Shown here in pieces: positions 33,631 through 60,790 of a stretch of DNA of 64,000 bases. Under the pieces are notes generated by a model. It was not told the DNA's origin. It saw only the letters and a program-made list of their open reading frames with translations, and ran no database searches. The first letter of the stretch is position 1, and every line of letters begins with the position of its first letter. The position numbers and the translations under genes were made by a program. Source of the stretch: Cohnella herbarum (lineage in GTDB: Bacteria > Bacillota > Bacilli > Paenibacillales > Paenibacillaceae); the NCBI RefSeq assembly GCF_012849095.1, contig NZ_CP051680.1, positions 3,622,501-3,686,500 on the forward strand, in the 5' to 3' direction.

Positions 33631-34563
33631 TCAGAACAAGGAATACTCGTTGTCGGTCGCCCGGCGGACGAGCCAGTTGGACAAGACGATCAAGACGAGG
33701 CCGACGAGCCCCTTGAACAAGCCGATCGCCGCGGTCTGGCTATACTGCATCTGAAGCACGCCCGCGCGCACGACATACGTATCGATGACGTCCGCCCATT
33801 CGTACACTTGCGGATTATACAAGTTGTAGATCTGATCGAAGTTAACGCTCATCAGGCTGCCCGCGGCGAAAATCAACGAGATGCCGATCGCCGGACGCAT
33901 CCCGGGAATCGTCACGTAGCGCATCCGCTGGTACCTGCCTGCTCCGTCGACGACGGCGGCTTCGTACAAGCTCGGGTTGATCCCCGCGATCGCGGCGATG
34001 TAGATGATCGTCCCCCATCCGATTTCTTTCCATAGATTCGATGCGACTAATAGTTGGATAAAGTGGACGTGGTCGGTCAGAAACTGAACCGGTCGGCTGC
34101 TTCCCCAAGATTCCAATAAACCGTTGACGACGCCGTCGATCGAGAAAAACATCAGGATCATGCCGGCAATGATCGTCCACGGGAAGAAGTGCGGCAAGTA
34201 GCTGACCGTCTGGACGAGCTTGCGGAACTTGCCGCCCCTCATCTCGTTAAACAAAAGCGCCAGCACGATCGGCCCTGCAAATCCGGAAATCAGCGTCAGG
34301 AAGCTGATAACCAGAGAGTTGCGGATGAGGCGCGTGATATCCGAATACGTGAAGATTTTCTCGAATTGCCCCCACCCGACCCACGGACTATCCCATACGC
34401 CCTTGCCGATGTTGTAATCCTTGAACGCGATGACGAGAAACCCCATCGGCACGTACAGGAACAACAGGACGAGCACGACCAAGGGCACCAGCATGAGCGT
34501 CAATTGCCATTGCTTGCCAAGTTGATAAAGCGGCGCATACCATCGTTGCGTACGGGTCGACAC
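33631..34563 (-). CDS. Carbohydrate ABC transporter permease (LplB type)
   Basis: 310 residues; first helix WQLTLMLVPLVVLVLLFLYVPMG, then the LplB hallmark VIAFKDYNIGKGVWDSPWVGW, and EAA loop EAAVVDGAGRYQRMRYVTIPG. ATG at 34563 is preceded by AGGAGGAAC. First gene of the importer, just downstream (in its own direction) of the three-copy repeat array. Confidence 0.93.
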   Translation of the reverse strand: MSTRTQRWYAPLYQLGKQWQLTLMLVPLVVLVLLFLYVPMGFLVIAFKDYNIGKGVWDSPWVGWGQFEKIFTYSDITRLIRNSLVISFLTLISGFAGPIVLALLFNEMRGGKFRKLVQTVSYLPHFFPWTIIAGMILMFFSIDGVVNGLLESWGSSRPVQFLTDHVHFIQLLVASNLWKEIGWGTIIYIAAIAGINPSLYEAAVVDGAGRYQRMRYVTIPGMRPAIGISLIFAAGSLMSVNFDQIYNLYNPQVYEWADVIDTYVVRAGVLQMQYSQTAAIGLFKGLVGLVLIVLSNWLVRRATDNEYSLF

Positions 34564-34581: not shown

Positions 34582-35148
34582 CTTTTTGAGTTACTCCTTC
34601 CAATCAAGACTCAAAAATCCGGTTTTCAGCACCGAGAAGGTTGGATGAAGCTTAGGGACTGAGGAACGGAGCGTAGGAAAAACCTACGTGAGTACCGGAA
34701 GGCCCGGCTGAATTCAAGATTCGACGTCGAATCCTCTTCTTGAAACCTCTTCGTGATCAAAAACGGACTTTTTGAGTTCCCCTTCCAATCAAGACTCAAA
34801 AATCCGGTTTTCAGCACCGAGAAGGTTGGATGAAGCTTAGGGACTGAGGAACGGAGCGTAGGAAAAACCTACGTGAGTACCGGAAGGCCCGGCTGAATTC
34901 AAGATTCGACGTCGAATCCTCTTTGAAACCTCTTCGTGATCAAAAGCGGACTTTTTGAGTTCCCCTTCCAATCAAGACTCAAAAATCCGGTTTTCAGCAC
35001 CGAGAAGGTTGGATGAAGCTTAGGGACTGAGGAACGGAGCGTAGGAAAAACCTACGTGAGTACCGGAAGGCCCGGCTGAATTCAAGATTCGACGTCGAAT
35101 CCTCTTCTTGAAACCTCTTCGTGATCAAAAGCGGACTTTTTGAGTTCC
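34582..35148 (-). repeat. Three tandem copies of a ~185-bp structured repeat plus a partial fourth end
   Basis: Units at 34582-34767 (186 bp), 34768-34950 (183 bp, missing a CTT) and 34951-35135 (185 bp) are almost identical; 35136-35148 begins a fourth. Read on the minus strand each unit is bounded by ACTCAAAAAGTCCG and CGGATTTTTGAGT, which pair. Inside are at least three hairpins: TTCAAGA...GATTC GACGTC GAATC...TTGAA, CCGG-GCCTT-CCGG, and CGTAGG-TTTTT-CCTACG. The array fills the gap between the beta-helix gene (stop at 35152) and the permease start (34563). No reading frame is conserved among units, which differ by non-multiples of three overall. It may be a structured RNA or a MITE-like element. 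Confidence 0.9.
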
Positions 35149-35151
35149 CTC

Positions 35152-37716
35152 TCAATAAGGGTTTTCCCAGGATGGCGCTTGTTTGACAGTCCCCGCCGCC
35201 CCGTTCTGCTCCACGATGCGGTCTTTCACTTCGTCCATCCGGTTGTTCACGATAATCGTGCCTTTGCCTCCGGACACCCGGACTCCGATCGAAGCATCGA
35301 ACGCGTAGTTTCCGTCGACGACGGTGAACGCGGCGTCTTTCACGTCGATCGCGCCCTCGTACGGAATTCCTTTTTCCTTCACGCCGAACCAGGTATTGTA
35401 ATATTGGTTAATGTCGCCGGATTTCGTCTTCGCCCAGATTTGGTTGCGGCGTACCGTATTCGCGAAGAACCCCCCCGTATCCGCAAGAACTTCGTCCCCG
35501 TACGAATGACCTTTGCCCACGTTCCCTTTCAGGAAAATGCCGCCCGAATTCGCCAAATAGTTGGCGTAAATCTGGTTGTAGGCGGTGATCGCCAAGAACG
35601 GATGCTCCGAATCCGTCCAATCCTCGATGCCCCCGAATACCGTGATGCTTCCCGATCCGTTGATCTGATTGCCGGCGACGACGTTGTCTAGCCCTGCCCC
35701 GTAGGAAAATTGCAGATTCCCCCGGGAATCGCTGATCCAGTTGTTGACGAACAAATTTTTGACCGCCGCGCGGATAACGTCGACGCGGCTTCCCGAGTCA
35801 GGCACGACCGTCCATTTCCGATCCAGATCCAGCTTTCCGTCCGCCGTGTTGCCGACGACTTTGCGGTACTGGCCCATGCCCGTGCCGGACGTGACGAAAG
35901 CGTAGTATTCTACCGCGGTCGTCGTAATCTCCCCGTCTTTCAAGCCGAGGGCGGATCCGACGGTAACCGAATTCGTCGTTGCCGATTTGATCTTGCCAGC
36001 GAACAGGGGCTTCACGTATCCGTCCTCGGACATCAGCATCTCCGAGCCGTTCGCCCTGCCGCCGGTATGGGAAATGACGTTGCCTGATATCCAGTTGCGC
36101 CACATGCCCATCTGCGAAGTAATCGCGCGTCCGCCGTTCTCGATCCTGTTGTTCTCGATAATCGACTCGGCGATCGAATTGACGAAAATGTTGTCCGAGC
36201 TGTTGTTCACCGCCGTCTCGAATTCGTTGTTCGCGATGCGGGCGTGCTTATGGGGTTTATCGCCGGAAAGCATGAACAACGATTGATCGCCGACGACCCT
36301 GCTGTCCGCGAGCGTGAAGCCGTCCGTCGAGGAGACGACGAGTACCCCGCCCATGTAGGCGCCCCACCATTCTTGGGGAGGGAACGCGAGCATATGGCGG
36401 TTTACGATCTCCGTCCTTCTCAGGAACGTGTCGCGAACCGTCGTTTTTGGGTTCTCGTTACCGACCAACACGCCTATGTCAGCGCCGGCTCCGGCGAGGA
36501 CGGATAAATCCTGCAGGCCCGTCTTGTCATCGAGCCATACCATCGGCGTCCGGTCTTTCAAGTACGGTCCGTAATCTCCCGCGAAACCTCGCACCCAGGT
36601 CGGGGAGGCAAACATGTTCGCGATCGGAAACGAGCCCTGAAGCGGCCGGTCCGGATTGACGACGAGCTGCGTCGCGGCTTTGCCCGATCCGGCGAGCACG
36701 ACGTTCGGTTTCACCCGGATCGTCTTGGAGATGGCCAGATTGCCGGGAGGGAGCAATACGATTCCGCCGCCCTTGGCCGCCGTCTGGTCGATCGCTTTCT
36801 GAATTTTGTCCGTATCGTCGGAGAACCCGTCCGCCTTCAAACCGCCGACGGAATCGATACGAACGTTCACCGGGCCTCCGCTCTGCGGAGTTCCGAGCTT
36901 AATGTTGCTCTCTTGCGCGAGCTTCGCAGTCAGGCCGCGGGATGCCGCGACATCAAGCGCGATCGGCTCGCTCCAACCTTGCGCGCCGCCGTACAGCACG
37001 TGCACGGCCAGATCGTAAGTGCCCGCCGGAAGCTTGGCGGGGAGCAGCACGTTCAGCACGTATGGCTTCACGTTCGCTTGCTCTTGCGTTTCTTCCATGA
37101 GCGCTTGAGCCCATTCGACCTTGCCGGTAACGCGGTTCTTCAAGGCAACCGGGTAATCGTAATCGGGGCCGGCGACTTCGAATTTCGTCTCCAGGTTGCG
37201 TCCGAAGACGCGGATGCGCTCACCCGGCAATGCGGCGGATGCGCTGGCGAAATAGAGCTCCGGCCGGTTGAGCAAATAAGGCGAGGACCATCCCGCGGAG
37301 TTTTTCGCCCAGACGATCGTCGGGACGACCGCGTTGCTAAGCGACAAGTTCGGATAGCCGATCTGGCCTGCGGCGATCAGATGCTCTTCGGGAGTGCCGA
37401 CCACCGTCGTCTTGACCGCCCCTTCCGGCGGTATCGCGGGCAGCGGCGATGCCGGATTTCCGTAAGCGGCCTTTAATTGGGCTGCGTCGTCTTTCGCGGG
37501 GCGAAACAGCCAAATTTCCGTGCTTTCGGTGAACCGATCTCCGGTCAAGACGAACGTCCCGCCCTCGTCGACCCCTTCGGTCGCGTAAGAGATCGCCGGA
37601 GGACCGGAATCTTGCGAAGCCGCACCCGCCAACCCGGCGGGCAGCATCAAACATGCGGCTAGCCCCAACGCGATCATTCTCGATAAAAAGCGCGGTTTCC
37701 TATCATTGCCTCTCAT
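35152..37716 (-). CDS. Secreted right-handed beta-helix (pectate lyase-like) protein with IPT/TIG-like N-terminus
   Basis: ATG at 37716 follows GGGAGGG; the frame continues upstream to 37854 without a site. About 854 residues: signal peptide (RFLSRMIALGLAACLMLPAGLAGAA), one or two Ig/IPT-like domains (GGTFVLTGDRFTESTEIWLF; ERIRVFGRNLE), and then a Pectate_lyase_3-type beta-helix starting LKADGFSDDTDKIQKAIDQTAAKGGGIVLLPPG with Asn-rich turns (IANNEFETAVNNSSDN, IIENNRIENGG, VVAGNQINGSG). Probably a secreted polysaccharide lyase or hydrolase. Catalytic residues cannot be assigned by eye. Paralogous in design to 40380-44306. Confidence 0.88.
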   Translation of the reverse strand: MRGNDRKPRFLSRMIALGLAACLMLPAGLAGAASQDSGPPAISYATEGVDEGGTFVLTGDRFTESTEIWLFRPAKDDAAQLKAAYGNPASPLPAIPPEGAVKTTVVGTPEEHLIAAGQIGYPNLSLSNAVVPTIVWAKNSAGWSSPYLLNRPELYFASASAALPGERIRVFGRNLETKFEVAGPDYDYPVALKNRVTGKVEWAQALMEETQEQANVKPYVLNVLLPAKLPAGTYDLAVHVLYGGAQGWSEPIALDVAASRGLTAKLAQESNIKLGTPQSGGPVNVRIDSVGGLKADGFSDDTDKIQKAIDQTAAKGGGIVLLPPGNLAISKTIRVKPNVVLAGSGKAATQLVVNPDRPLQGSFPIANMFASPTWVRGFAGDYGPYLKDRTPMVWLDDKTGLQDLSVLAGAGADIGVLVGNENPKTTVRDTFLRRTEIVNRHMLAFPPQEWWGAYMGGVLVVSSTDGFTLADSRVVGDQSLFMLSGDKPHKHARIANNEFETAVNNSSDNIFVNSIAESIIENNRIENGGRAITSQMGMWRNWISGNVISHTGGRANGSEMLMSEDGYVKPLFAGKIKSATTNSVTVGSALGLKDGEITTTAVEYYAFVTSGTGMGQYRKVVGNTADGKLDLDRKWTVVPDSGSRVDVIRAAVKNLFVNNWISDSRGNLQFSYGAGLDNVVAGNQINGSGSITVFGGIEDWTDSEHPFLAITAYNQIYANYLANSGGIFLKGNVGKGHSYGDEVLADTGGFFANTVRRNQIWAKTKSGDINQYYNTWFGVKEKGIPYEGAIDVKDAAFTVVDGNYAFDASIGVRVSGGKGTIIVNNRMDEVKDRIVEQNGAAGTVKQAPSWENPY

Positions 37717-37879
37717 GAAACAAGTCCCTCCCAATGGGTCGTCGCAATCGGGAACGGATTCGGCCATCTTGTCGGCATCGGTCTTCGAAGTTGCGAACCA
37801 CGCTCCCGTCGCCTTCATCCTAGGGGGATAATCGTTATTTTGACTACGGACCATTTCGCAGATTAGAGAACAAAAGGAC

Positions 37880-40379: not shown

Positions 40380-43300
40380 TTAAGGATACAGCCGGCTTTG
40401 GGGAACAATCTGTTGCGCTTGTCCCGGGTAAGCCCAGTAAAGCTTGATGACGGCGTTCGGTTGATTGTTGTAGTATTCGATCTTAATGTCGTACTTCGTG
40501 CCGGAGGACAAACTAATCGTCCCCGATCGATCCGTAGGCGAATGGTCGCTATAGTGATCGATGACCATCGTTCCGTTCACCCACACCTTCACCCCGTCGT
40601 CGCTCGTCGTCGTAAACGTATAAGTTCCCGTGACCGGCGCCTCGACTTTGCCCGTCCAACGAATCGAGAACGTGTCGCTCGCATCGAAGTTGATTCCCGT
40701 CGGAATCGACGTTCCCCAATCGAAATTGATCTGGGAATCTATGCGCGTGTTCCGAAGCCCGACGAAATCGATGTTGTTGAAGTACTCGCCCGTCAGCCCG
40801 GTCCCCGTCCCTACGCTCGAGGCATCGGTCGTGACCGTGACCGCGCCGCTTGCCGCGGATACGTTGTTCGCGGCATCTCGCGCCTTCACGGTATAGGTAT
40901 AGCTCGTGTTCGCCGTCAGTACCGTATCCGTGAACGTCGTCGCCGAACCGGCTACCGTACCCGCCAGCATCGTGCCGCGATAAATCTCGTAACCGTCCAC
41001 GCCTACGTTATCGGTGGACGCCGTCCACGTCAGCGTGACCGAGTTTGCCGTCTTGCTCGGAGCGGCTAGGTTCGTCGGCACCGTCGGAGCTTGCGTATCC
41101 GGTCCCGGGTTCGTCGTGACCGTGACCGCGCCGCTTGCCGCGGATACGTTAAACGCGGCATCGCGCGCCTTCACCGTGTAGGTGTAGCTCGTGTTCGCCG
41201 TCAGTCCCGTATCCGTGAACGTCGTCGCCGAACCGGCTACCGTACCCGCCAGCGTCGCACCGCGATAGATCTCGTAACCGTCCACGCCTACGTTATCGGT
41301 GGACGCAGTCCACGTCAACGTGACCGAGTTCGCCGTCTTGCTCGGAGCGGCCAGGTTCGTCGGTACCGTCGGCGCTTGCGTGTCAACGACGCCTCCTCCG
41401 TTACCGATTACGAGCTTCACCCCGACGGTAGAGGACAATCCTCCGTTCGTCGAGATCGTAACCGTACCTGCATAGGTCCCTTCGGCAAGTCCGGCAGTAT
41501 TAACGGCTACGTTGAGCAACCCGTTCGTTTGCTCCGCCGCGACGGTTCCGGTACCGGATCCGACGGATGCGGTGATCCAAGGCTGCGAGGCGGACGCCGT
41601 CCACGTCATGCTCGCGATGCCCGTATTGGCGAGCGGAACCGATTGAGCCCCGATCGATGCGCCGACCCCGCCCTTGAACTCGAGGGAACGCAGCAGCGGC
41701 GTCGGCCGCTCGGCGAGCGTGCTGCTATTCGTCTTCACGTATATCGTAGAGGCTCCGGAGTAAGAGTTGGACATGAAATACGGTTCGCTGTACTTGCGAA
41801 TTTCGACCGGCCTAGCCGCGTACGAAACGTTCGGATTATTCCGTACGGTCAACGAGTTGTTCCGGTAGAGAACTTGCGTCCACTGGTCGGCGCGCGCGCC
41901 GAGCGTCGAGCCGCTCCCCGTCACTCCTTCGAAACCGCTCGCCGCGATGGCGTTACGCGATGCCACGATCTCTTGGCCTTCGTACGGCGAAATCTGCGCG
42001 TTAAACAGCGCTGGAGGCCCTGACGCCACGTTGTTCTGTGCCGTAGTCACCGCAGCCGACCCTCCTCGGAAATAGGAGCCGAGAACGGAAGGACCGAGGA
42101 AATCGTAACCGTCGAACGCCCACGCGACGATGTTCATGCCGCTATGAACCGCGTTATTGGCGATTTCGTCCCGTTGCTCGTTCCAATACCCCGGTCCCGT
42201 GCTATATCCGCCGAGCACTCGGCCCCCGTAGGTACGGTTAGTAATGTTGCCTTCGGCCGCGAAACCGAAAGCATTCCCATCGGCATCGGGTCCAGTACTG
42301 GCCGAATAGAACAGGTTGTACCCTTCCGGGAACGCGTCGATATTGTTCTTGTAGACGACATGGTCCTTGGACAAGTACGTCAACGTGATCTTGCTATCCG
42401 CAGCCGGAGGTATTCTCCACGCCTTGTCGACCGTTATCGTAGACGAAGTATGGCTGACGATTTTCCTCGCTTGACCGATGCCCGTCCCGTTCATGATGAC
42501 GACGTAGGCTTGTCCGTCCAACTGCCCGTGCACGATGTTGCCCGGAACCGAACTGATCGCCGGCATATTATCGACGTTGCGCGCCTGACCGTCAATAAGT
42601 CCGTCGGTTCGGATCGTAAGCGTCGTTCCGGAATTGGATGCCACTTGCGCGTACACTTTGCTCGGGATGCCATGGAACAAAATCAGTTCGCCGCGGTTAT
42701 CGTCCACCGCCACGTTCGTCCCCGTATTCCAAGCGATGTACGAGTTCTCTACCGAGCCGAATTGCGGCGCAGAGTAGAAAACGCGCTTCGCCCATACTTT
42801 ATATTGGAGCTCGTTCGCCGGCACGAAATTCAAATAGTTTTTGCTTCCGTTCGCATCTGTCGGCCAGTTTAACGTTTCGAAATGATTGCGCTCCATAAGC
42901 AGGTTATTGCCGTCCGTGTAAGTCGCGGCTTCGGTTTCCGATACTTGGGCGCCGCCGTAAGGACCGCCGTAGAAGTTATTGTTATGAATCCAGAAATCCG
43001 TCCCGGACAAAGTCAGTCCCCTGTAGAAATCCGACCCGGTCACTTCTCCCCCCGACGTGCGAATGTCCACGGTGCCTCCTTTCGTTCCGGCATCCGCCGT
43101 GATGACGAGATCCTTGAGCCTTATGTCCGCGTAAGGTCCCGGGAAGTTCGTCTTGATCGGCCCGTATTGGGGCTGATTCGGTCCCGTCTTCTGCCGTAGC
43201 GTGAATGCTTCCAGCATCGTGTGCTCGCCGATGATCAGAATGCCCGTCGGGAATTGGTTGACGGGATCGATGTTCAGCTCGGTCGCGGTCTTGCCCGCCC

Positions 43301-50991: not shown

Positions 50992-51234
50992 ACTAGCATT
51001 CTTTTACAACCGTCTATACTTTTTTATGGTTTTTGGAACGGGGGAGGCGGATTGAAGGTACCTCTTAGCACAAACTTGGCGATTCCCGCCAATTTGCCTG
51101 CTCTGGCCGATGTAACCCGACTCAGCCGGGCTATTCACGACTATATGTCTCATCCGGCATCTACGCAGTCTAATTTACTCCAACGAAGTTTTCTACTGAA
51201 GAGGTATAGATCAAACAACCACCTTGAGCTGAAG

Positions 51235-51766
51235 TTAGAGCGGCTGCGCCGCTTTAAATCGAGCAAACAGCTACCTTGCGAGGAATTAGAGCGGCTGCGC
51301 CGCTTTAAATCGAGCAAACAGCTACCTTGCGAGGAGTTAGAGCGGCTGCGCCGCTTTAAATCGAGCAAACAGCTACCTTGCGAGGAATTAGAGCGGCTAT
51401 GCCGCTTTAAATCGAGCAAACAGCTACCTTGCGAGGAATTAGAGCGGCTGCGCCGCTTTAAATCGAGCAAACAGCTACCTTGCGAGGAATTAGAGCGGCT
51501 GCGCCGTTACTACTCAGGTCTCCCCAAATACGGAGAGATTCTTTCTTTACCTCCCAACTTTCGGCTAACGAACCACGATACGAACTGAGAGTACGTTATC
51601 TCCGCCAAAGGTCGGCTGACGACGGAGGATGTTACTTAGTGTGAGGCTGGATGACGACTACGGTGAAGCAGACTAAAAAGTGCCTAGTAATACTCCCTAA
51701 AAGAAGTTGACCTGAGTAGTAACGGCTACGCCGCTTTAAATCGAGCAAACAGCTACCTTGCGAGGA
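51235..51766. repeat. 51-bp tandem repeat array, sixth unit split by an insertion
   Basis: Five complete units begin at 51235, 51286, 51337, 51388 and 51439. A sixth starts at 51490, breaks at about 51505 and resumes at 51723 (CGGCTACGCCGCTTTAAATC...) after the 218-bp element. Each unit contains AGCGGCTGCGCCGCT, a 6-bp stem with 3-base loop. Units differ by single bases (GAATTAG/GAGTTAG; CTGCGCC/CTATGCC), so the array is young. Confidence 0.9.
51506..51723. mobile_element. 218-bp MITE-like element inserted in the repeat array
   Basis: It begins GTTACTACTCAGGTC and ends with the exact reverse complement GACCTGAGTAGTAAC; with the flanking bases the inverted repeats span 18 bp (51503-51520 and 51709-51726). 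The flanks CGGCTGCGCC (51496-51505) and CGGCTACGCC (51723-51732) look like a 9-10 bp target duplication with one difference. No coding frame is evident inside, so it would need a transposase from elsewhere. Confidence 0.65.
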
Positions 51767-60155: not shown

Positions 60156-60560
60156 CGGCTAACCTCCCCTCCTATCTATATATCTATGAGGGATAAGCTG
60201 ATTTTATTTTTCAAGATTCGAAACGGTTTCTAAGTGCCATTTTGAAGCTGTCTATTAACTGGGGATAACCTGATTCACACTCCGCGTCAAATCGATTTTT
60301 GTTTGAGGTCAGCCGTCTCTTAATAAGAAAATCGCTATCAATTGATCTGCAGCCACTTTTATATAGACAGCAATATAGAATCCGTCACCTTCTATAGCAA
60401 GACAGGCTCAAAATCGAAATCAGTGCTTGTCCATCATTGTTAAGTACCTTATCTTCATCGGATGGCGGGTATGGGAGAGTTGGTGCACAGGATAGAGTGC
60501 TCTGAGGGGTCAAATTGGTCGGATACCGAGGGGGAGTGAGCTGTAAGTCGCTGAATTTCT

Positions 60561-60790
60561 GGCACTATAGCCCCATCCGTGCCCGGAGTCAGCGCTATAG
60601 CGTTACTTTTTGGCACTATAGCCCCATTCGTGCTCGGAGTCAGTGCTATAGCGTTACTTTTTGGCACTATAGCCCCATCCGTGCTCGGAGTCAGTGCTAT
60701 AGCGTTACTTTTTGGCACTATAGCCCCATCCGTGCTCGGAGTCAGCGCTATAGCGTTACTTTTTGGCACTATAGCCCCATCCGTGCTTGA
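60561..60790. repeat. 51-bp tandem repeat array, four full units plus one partial
   Basis: Units start at 60561, 60612, 60663, 60714 and 60765 (partial); each opens GGCACTATAGCCCCATCCGT and contains the palindrome CGCTATAGCG (or TGCTATAGCG) followed by TTACTTTTT. Variation is limited to single bases (GCCCGG/GCTCGG; CAGCGC/CAGTGC). Unit length equals that of the unrelated array at 51235. Confidence 0.9.

Follow-up and report, generated by a model that had tools for sequence, protein, structure and literature searches.

A covarying and very probably mobile RNA element in Paenibacillaceae that forms polar arrays with 5′-truncated leaders

Bacterial MITEs are non-autonomous, lie between genes and carry target duplications, and REP/REPIN elements are dispersed extragenic palindromes. 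Penelope-like elements have a tandem layout in which a truncated copy stands upstream of a full one. We know of no non-coding retroposon class of the retrozyme or SINE type that has been described from bacteria. The Bacillus cereus group (Firmicutes) carries bcr1–bcr18, short dispersed repeats of 100–400 bp, of which bcr1 reaches tens of copies per strain, bears signs of a mobile element and has a short A/T-rich motif, TTTAT (PMC6542083). Animal retrozymes are small non-autonomous RNA-encoding units of 150–450 bp that occur as dimers or multimers, carry hammerhead ribozymes and have target duplications where these are present (PMC7229834).

The element analysed here, a unit of ~170–185 bp, stands as a three-copy array in a 64,000-nt stretch of the Cohnella herbarum genome (the window). 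It is like MITEs in its non-autonomy, intergenic location and target duplications, but its outermost 6 nt are not inverted repeats, it shows RNA-strand covariation, and no parental transposase was found for it in the Cohnella herbarum genome. Unlike REP/REPIN elements, its unit is much longer, branched and accompanied by target duplications. With Penelope-like elements it shares the layout, whereas it has no coding capacity, a bacterial host and a unit of only ~180 bp. Its nearest likeness in working, as a short mobile non-coding repeat, is to the bcr repeats; it is set apart from them by a different host group, by ~6-bp TATAAG-like duplications in place of TTTAT, by a covarying fold and by polar arrays with truncated leaders (PMC6542083). 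Its layout also resembles that of small tandem retrozymes, but, unlike retrozymes (PMC7229834), it has no match to a known ribozyme, and its occurrence does not follow that of reverse transcriptase genes. The element is a variant of the mobile structured repeat with a strong polarity.

In the window, three near-identical copies of the unit, spaced 185 and 183 bp apart, occupy 34596–35149, as seen from the sequence itself, a repeat finder and Tandem Repeats Finder. The last of these reports 34582–35149 as 3.1 copies of period 185 with 98% matches, confirming the three-copy, 185-bp repeat proposed in the original prediction, and the copies are as nearly identical as it had stated: one substitution and one 2-nt deletion are the differences within the unit, and the first junction spacer is also slightly divergent. 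The closing stem it had named, ACTCAAAAA...TTTTTGAGT, is present in the units. The array is preceded by an 11-nt piece of another copy's 3′ end, and its parts are as follows.

34582–34592, + strand: 5′-truncated leader, reduced to the final 11 nt (CTTTTTGAGTT) of a copy lying upstream (assigned partly by eye)
34593–34608, + strand: leader 3′ tail and junction spacer preceding copy 1
34609–34777, + strand: copy 1, closing stem to closing stem (covariance model match, 185.8 bits)
34718–34733: GATTCGACGTCGAATC palindrome of copy 1, found again at 34903–34918 and 35086–35101
34778–34793, + strand: junction spacer between copies 1 and 2
34794–34960, + strand: copy 2, lacking 2 nt in the variable part (covariance model match, 180.6 bits)
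34961–34976, + strand: junction spacer between copies 2 and 3
34977–35145, + strand: copy 3 (covariance model match, 188.2 bits)
35146–35151, + strand: element 3′ tail TCCCTC, the counterpart of the family's TACCTC (by eye)
35152–35157, strand not applicable: right-junction target side TCAATA, which includes the stop codon of the beta-helix gene

The right end of the array abuts this stop codon (35152–35154, − strand); the product of this gene (35152–37854, − strand) is 900 aa long and has a pectate-lyase-like domain. On the left, the array ends a short way upstream of the ribosome-binding site that serves a transport permease (33631–34563, − strand). The array had been said to fill the whole gap, which is nearly so: the 18 bp at the permease start are the sole part of the intergenic gap that it leaves free. 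We saw no left duplicate of TCAATA at this array, target duplications being defined on single copies elsewhere. The short leader is of the same kind as the longer leaders found at 32 of 101 loci, discussed below. Further repeats in the window are an array of 5.8 copies in which each 51-bp unit contains a GCGGC..GCCGC hairpin (51212–51506, 95% matches), 4.5 copies of a different 51-bp unit with CTATAGC motifs (60556–60787, 96% matches) and a 285-bp direct repeat of 1.9 copies (40828–41381, 93% matches), perhaps domain repeats inside a gene.

Lying directly upstream of the permease ribosome-binding site, the array is placed where it might regulate the flanking operon in cis or stabilise its mRNA, a local role that the original prediction had entertained. 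However, its RNA strand (+) is antisense to this importer operon, and in several sister genomes the orthologous site lacks a full copy. Across 101 loci, orientation to the flanking genes, assigned with a simple ORF caller, is unbiased rather than fixed (++ 41, −− 39, −+ 17, +− 4), which argues against a cis-regulator. We consider this explanation highly improbable, and a local regulatory RNA was ruled out as the main reading by these orientation statistics.

What the copies share is a fold. For the + strand of the window unit the predicted folding energy is −61.1 kcal/mol (z −2.56), equalled by 1 of 200 shuffles; the − strand folds more weakly (z −1.38; 16 of 200 shuffles). In an alignment of 66 diverse copies, from which the structure used for the covariation counts was itself predicted, 24 of 45 consensus stem pairs carry compensatory changes on both sides, and 97.7% of consensus-pair cells form pairs. 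Cells changed on both sides total 144, where shuffles give 29.4; none of 500 shuffles reached any of five covariation measures, and sliding the partners by one column lowers pairing to 44–46%. Pairs 63–94, 65–92, 71–87 and 19–166 are each altered in many sequences, for example among G–C, U–A and A–U. The resulting plan consists of one closing helix, a long branched arm and hairpins retained through compensatory change, with unpaired conserved stretches between the covarying helices.

Counted over predominantly Watson–Crick pairs, G–U occurs 86 times against 11 for A–C (46 against 5 in the closing stem alone). A DNA-only hairpin predicts no such strand bias; the wobble asymmetry therefore speaks against DNA-only folding and indicates that one strand is selected as RNA. 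By these comparisons, covariation shows the element to encode a predicted structured RNA on the + strand, under RNA-level selection, and from covariation alone we infer that it is transcribed. The structured RNA suggested in the original prediction is thus upheld by strong covariation and strand-specific wobble pairs, and a chance palindrome is ruled out. One detail holds only locally: the full palindrome GATTCGACGTCGAATC is present in all three window copies but is not a feature of the family, since across the 66 copies its site keeps just a UUCG..CGAA hairpin out of the 16 bp.

The family is large. BLAST of the Cohnella herbarum genome finds 42 places, and a covariance model (R1) built from 22 of its copies finds 28 near-full-length copies there, each scoring at least 141 bits. 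With this genome included in every count, model matches occur in 12 of 37 genomes of the genus (E 1e-4) and, as lower bounds because searches over 40 genomes used stricter filters, with few candidates scored in each genome, in 130 of 295 genomes of the family (E 1e-8), 163 of 392 of the order (E 1e-6) and 37 of 398 of the class (E 1e-6). Some genomes hold tens of copies. The order-level matches include members of two further families (f2 and f66). The class-level set adds strong matches in ten genomes of one genus in yet another family (f23), where the 16 loci read share the branched plan but differ in most of the long-arm sequence (by eye); single weak matches (E ~1e-7) in two other genomes of this set, G632 and G638, were excluded from membership. 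The hosts named for the 80 listed stretches, of at least 116 in all, are Paenibacillus, Cohnella, Fontibacillus and a Paenibacillaceae bacterium. Viral contigs have no match to an exact 26-base pattern and phage records no BLAST match, while three Paenibacillus plasmid records carry the element at 22 places. The 2.7-Mb replicon NZ_CP054613.1 (Paenibacillus cellulosilyticus), held in the plasmid collection, carries it at 19 places.

Some variants (L009, L006, L158, L181, L295, L338 and L339) are ~36 to 110 nt longer, with extra sequence inside the unit. Others (L096, L091, L114 and L116) are small hairpin remnants that keep both ends and have lost much to nearly all of the interior.

At the gathering cut-off, none of the 4227 Rfam families matched the window or six loci from other genomes; the best sub-threshold matches were snoRNA models with E values of 0.35 and worse. 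The element is also undescribed in the literature searched, a scope outside which most subscription papers lie. The suggestion that it is an undescribed element is supported within this scope: it is real, widespread and absent from the RNA family library. A ~180-nt covarying RNA present in 163 of 392 sampled genomes of an order has no entry there. In Paenibacillus and Cohnella it can serve as a marker, and it also calls for caution when genomes are annotated or assembled.

The conserved unpaired stretches, together with a single fixed 3′ end beside host DNA, would suit an RNA that serves as guide or scaffold, whether for an RNA-guided nuclease or for a comparable system acting in trans, and that has spread as a non-coding mobile unit. 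The Rfam result for these seven sequence stretches provides no such family, a search of the element's own genome identified no protein partner, and the element has target duplications, which are not expected of the IS200/IS605 group. We regard a guide function as very doubtful.

Single copies end in a TGCGTG-like 5′ tail and a TACCTC-like 3′ tail and are flanked by a ~6-bp repeat, often TATAAG-like. Flanks match exactly over at least 6 nt in 21 of 61 single copies (re-paired flanks: mean 3.0, maximum 9); 8 of 69 rows had been dropped from this test, five (L001, L006, L010, L193 and L210) for leaders detached or below BLAST length that were spotted by eye and three (L183, L213 and L009) as leaderless arrays. 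At one site, an element-free sister genome has one copy of the target where the insertion has two (L171 versus L258, by eye). These target duplications imply that the element moves. Terminal inverted repeats were not seen at the extreme ends, where the outermost 6 nt are unpaired; an inverted repeat begins ~6 nt inside them (both by eye). Copies are dispersed and mostly intergenic, and on the right they often end against the stop codon belonging to an opposite-strand gene, the window array included. In four genus genomes (L016, L143, L170 and L197) a copy lies against the same gene end, with AAAGCATCATTTGCGG on its right and differing left flanks; this common right flank reflects either a shared old site or repeated targeting.

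Arrays are short and run in one direction: 14 of the 101 loci with a full copy hold two or three. Their construction is polar. At 32 of 101 loci the full copies have a partial same-strand copy immediately upstream, and at none is there one immediately downstream, after correction of the 35 upstream and 2 downstream cases flagged automatically; left uncounted were L145 and L171 (5′-part matches) and L193 (a 3′ fragment 45 nt off) upstream, and 13–16-nt matches at L185 and L217, at least 87 nt distant, downstream. Thirty of the 32 leaders end within 2 nt of the unit 3′ end (the exceptions are L170 and L191), and they start anywhere between unit positions 33 and 155. A second, non-overlapping locus set from named genomes gives 9 of 64 upstream and 0 of 64 downstream; here matches were judged full length, 75 groups were reduced by 9 earlier loci and 2 at contig edges, and part of the set comes from already used genomes, at other places. 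The array polarity is strong and family-wide. Selection at neighbouring gene starts was rejected as its cause, as leaders occur in both orientations to genes. A defective copy can nevertheless sit downstream of a full one: at L213 an internally deleted copy lies between two full copies, a position outside the partial-copy scan, which covered the flanks of the outermost full copies.

Arrays appear mostly to expand in place, because the closest relative of a leader is its own neighbouring full copy in 22 of 26 testable cases (6 of the 32 leaders were unrankable, other units lacking). In the exceptions the neighbour ranks second (L155 and L160) or eleventh (L170 and L175). The 22 cases led us to reject independent insertion beside an old copy as the general origin of arrays, although L170 and L175 may have arisen in this way. 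In 10 of 11 testable arrays, all but L006, the units are also closer to one another than to the remaining copies from that genome sample. With dispersed copies, target duplications and array units mostly closest to each other, the idea of a mobile element amplified in place has held up well, and we are confident, short of certainty, that this is a mobile structured-RNA element. Array spacers (for example, those of L003, L177, L161 and L005) tend toward TTCAAATGAAG, unlike the TATAAG-like repeats of single copies.

At truncated loci, no flank repeat was found within 10 nt (0 of 32) and 2 of 32 had one within 40 nt, as in re-paired controls; without a target duplication, insertion and later erosion are inseparable in these data. 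Comparison with orthologous sites in sister genomes, made by eye, reveals several histories. At L150 a 6-nt word is common to leader and host DNA where they join, and the host has lost ~20 nt. At L160 the leader starts right at the target, and the host has lost little or nothing. Some leaders (L155, L003, L174 and L178) keep a short 5′ stub or, on the left, a target-like word, marking part of them as later internal deletions; at L155 and L003 both word and stub are retained, which indicates that the deletion took place within the leader. Sister genomes retain just element 3′ ends where L003, L177, L178 and L184 lie, and at the L155 site G024 has an apparent 5′ stub instead. Some truncation is thus later erosion, mostly but not always one-sided. 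At L259 (G019:C11:37400-38050), orthologous to L168, another short repeat with TTTGTACGATTTT-type units takes the element's place.

Deletions of this kind, in the L155 and L003 leaders and the middle copy of L213, would also be at home in a plain DNA transposon derivative, a MITE whose folding is a by-product, whose arrays arise by slippage and whose leaders arise by hairpin-driven deletion; deletion derivatives that retain both ends, target duplications and the dispersed, mostly intergenic copies fit as well. Such a derivative does not account for internal helices that covary across genera or for wobble pairs that favour one strand by 86 to 11, it leaves the upstream polarity unexplained, and no transposase relative with these ends was found in the Cohnella herbarum genome. 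We judge it unlikely.

The fixed 3′ ends and variable 5′ truncation of the leaders are, by comparison, what would be left by retroposition of a SINE- or retrozyme-like kind, in which an RNA, as a linear multimer or a circle, is reverse-transcribed from its 3′ end at a nicked TATAAG-like site; a multimeric or circular template would yield tandem units and an early stop a 5′-truncated leader. The 6-nt junction overlap at L150, the single copies with target duplications and the RNA-level selection on the closing stem are in keeping with it. So is the BLAST count of weak-hit regions in the Cohnella herbarum genome, of which 10 of 19 are 3′-only and 3 of 19 are 5′-only, in a hand-picked set where L232 and L233 also hold the other-end motif. 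The enzyme does not follow the element, however. A survey of 37 genus genomes found RVT_1 matches in 9 of the 12 that bear the element, yet none in G005, G016 and G029, each with 8–10 element matches, and the RVT_1-rich G002, G009 and G018 are element-free. G005, one of those without an RVT_1 match, has an array with identical units (L185). A reverse transcriptase link was set aside on the absence of tracking in this survey. The truncated loci are without target duplications, and no Rfam ribozyme or other family matched, which leaves room for an unknown ribozyme. Retroposition is in our estimate an unlikely route. The fuller version, a bacterial retrozyme- or SINE-like element whose circular or multimeric RNA is reverse-copied from the 3′ end to give full copies with target duplications and truncated-leader tandems, seems quite improbable; if true, it would constitute what is, to our knowledge, a new class of non-coding retroposon in bacteria.

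The account that we favour, and hold to be reasonably probable, is a non-autonomous mobile element that encodes a structured RNA, is moved by a putative enzyme acting in trans and whose arrays are made or mended starting from the 3′ side. Preservation of the 3′ junction with variable loss at the 5′ end points to a process that runs out toward the 5′ side; polar copying or repair as the array mechanism is offered more tentatively, at somewhat less than even confidence. As to the putative enzyme, the part played by the RNA and the succession of steps, we infer the following. A trans-acting enzyme would recognise the conserved ends (5′ UGCGUG-stem, stem-UACCUC 3′), cut A/T-rich TATAAG-like sites and insert a copy, and the RNA might participate in the cycle, for example as a bound cofactor. 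For an array to form, re-synthesis or repair of a copy would proceed from the 3′ side. Beginning at the intact 3′ junction, copying could run round again or start anew and so add full units; where it halted at random and joined the left flank, a 5′-truncated leader without a left target duplicate would result. Together, mobility and polar arrays offer a way into the question of how a purely non-coding unit moves and multiplies in bacteria, and of whether RNA participates.

A search of the Cohnella herbarum genome with the end motifs, exact and with up to 3 mismatches, found no ORF-bearing relative or transposase with the same ends. The additional end-motif places were read in part, and those read are remnants, so an autonomous relative with these ends was set aside for this genome. 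One inverted pair of ends, 2.5 kb apart (C1:6548565/6551091), encloses a gene that by eye resembles an AraC-type regulator.
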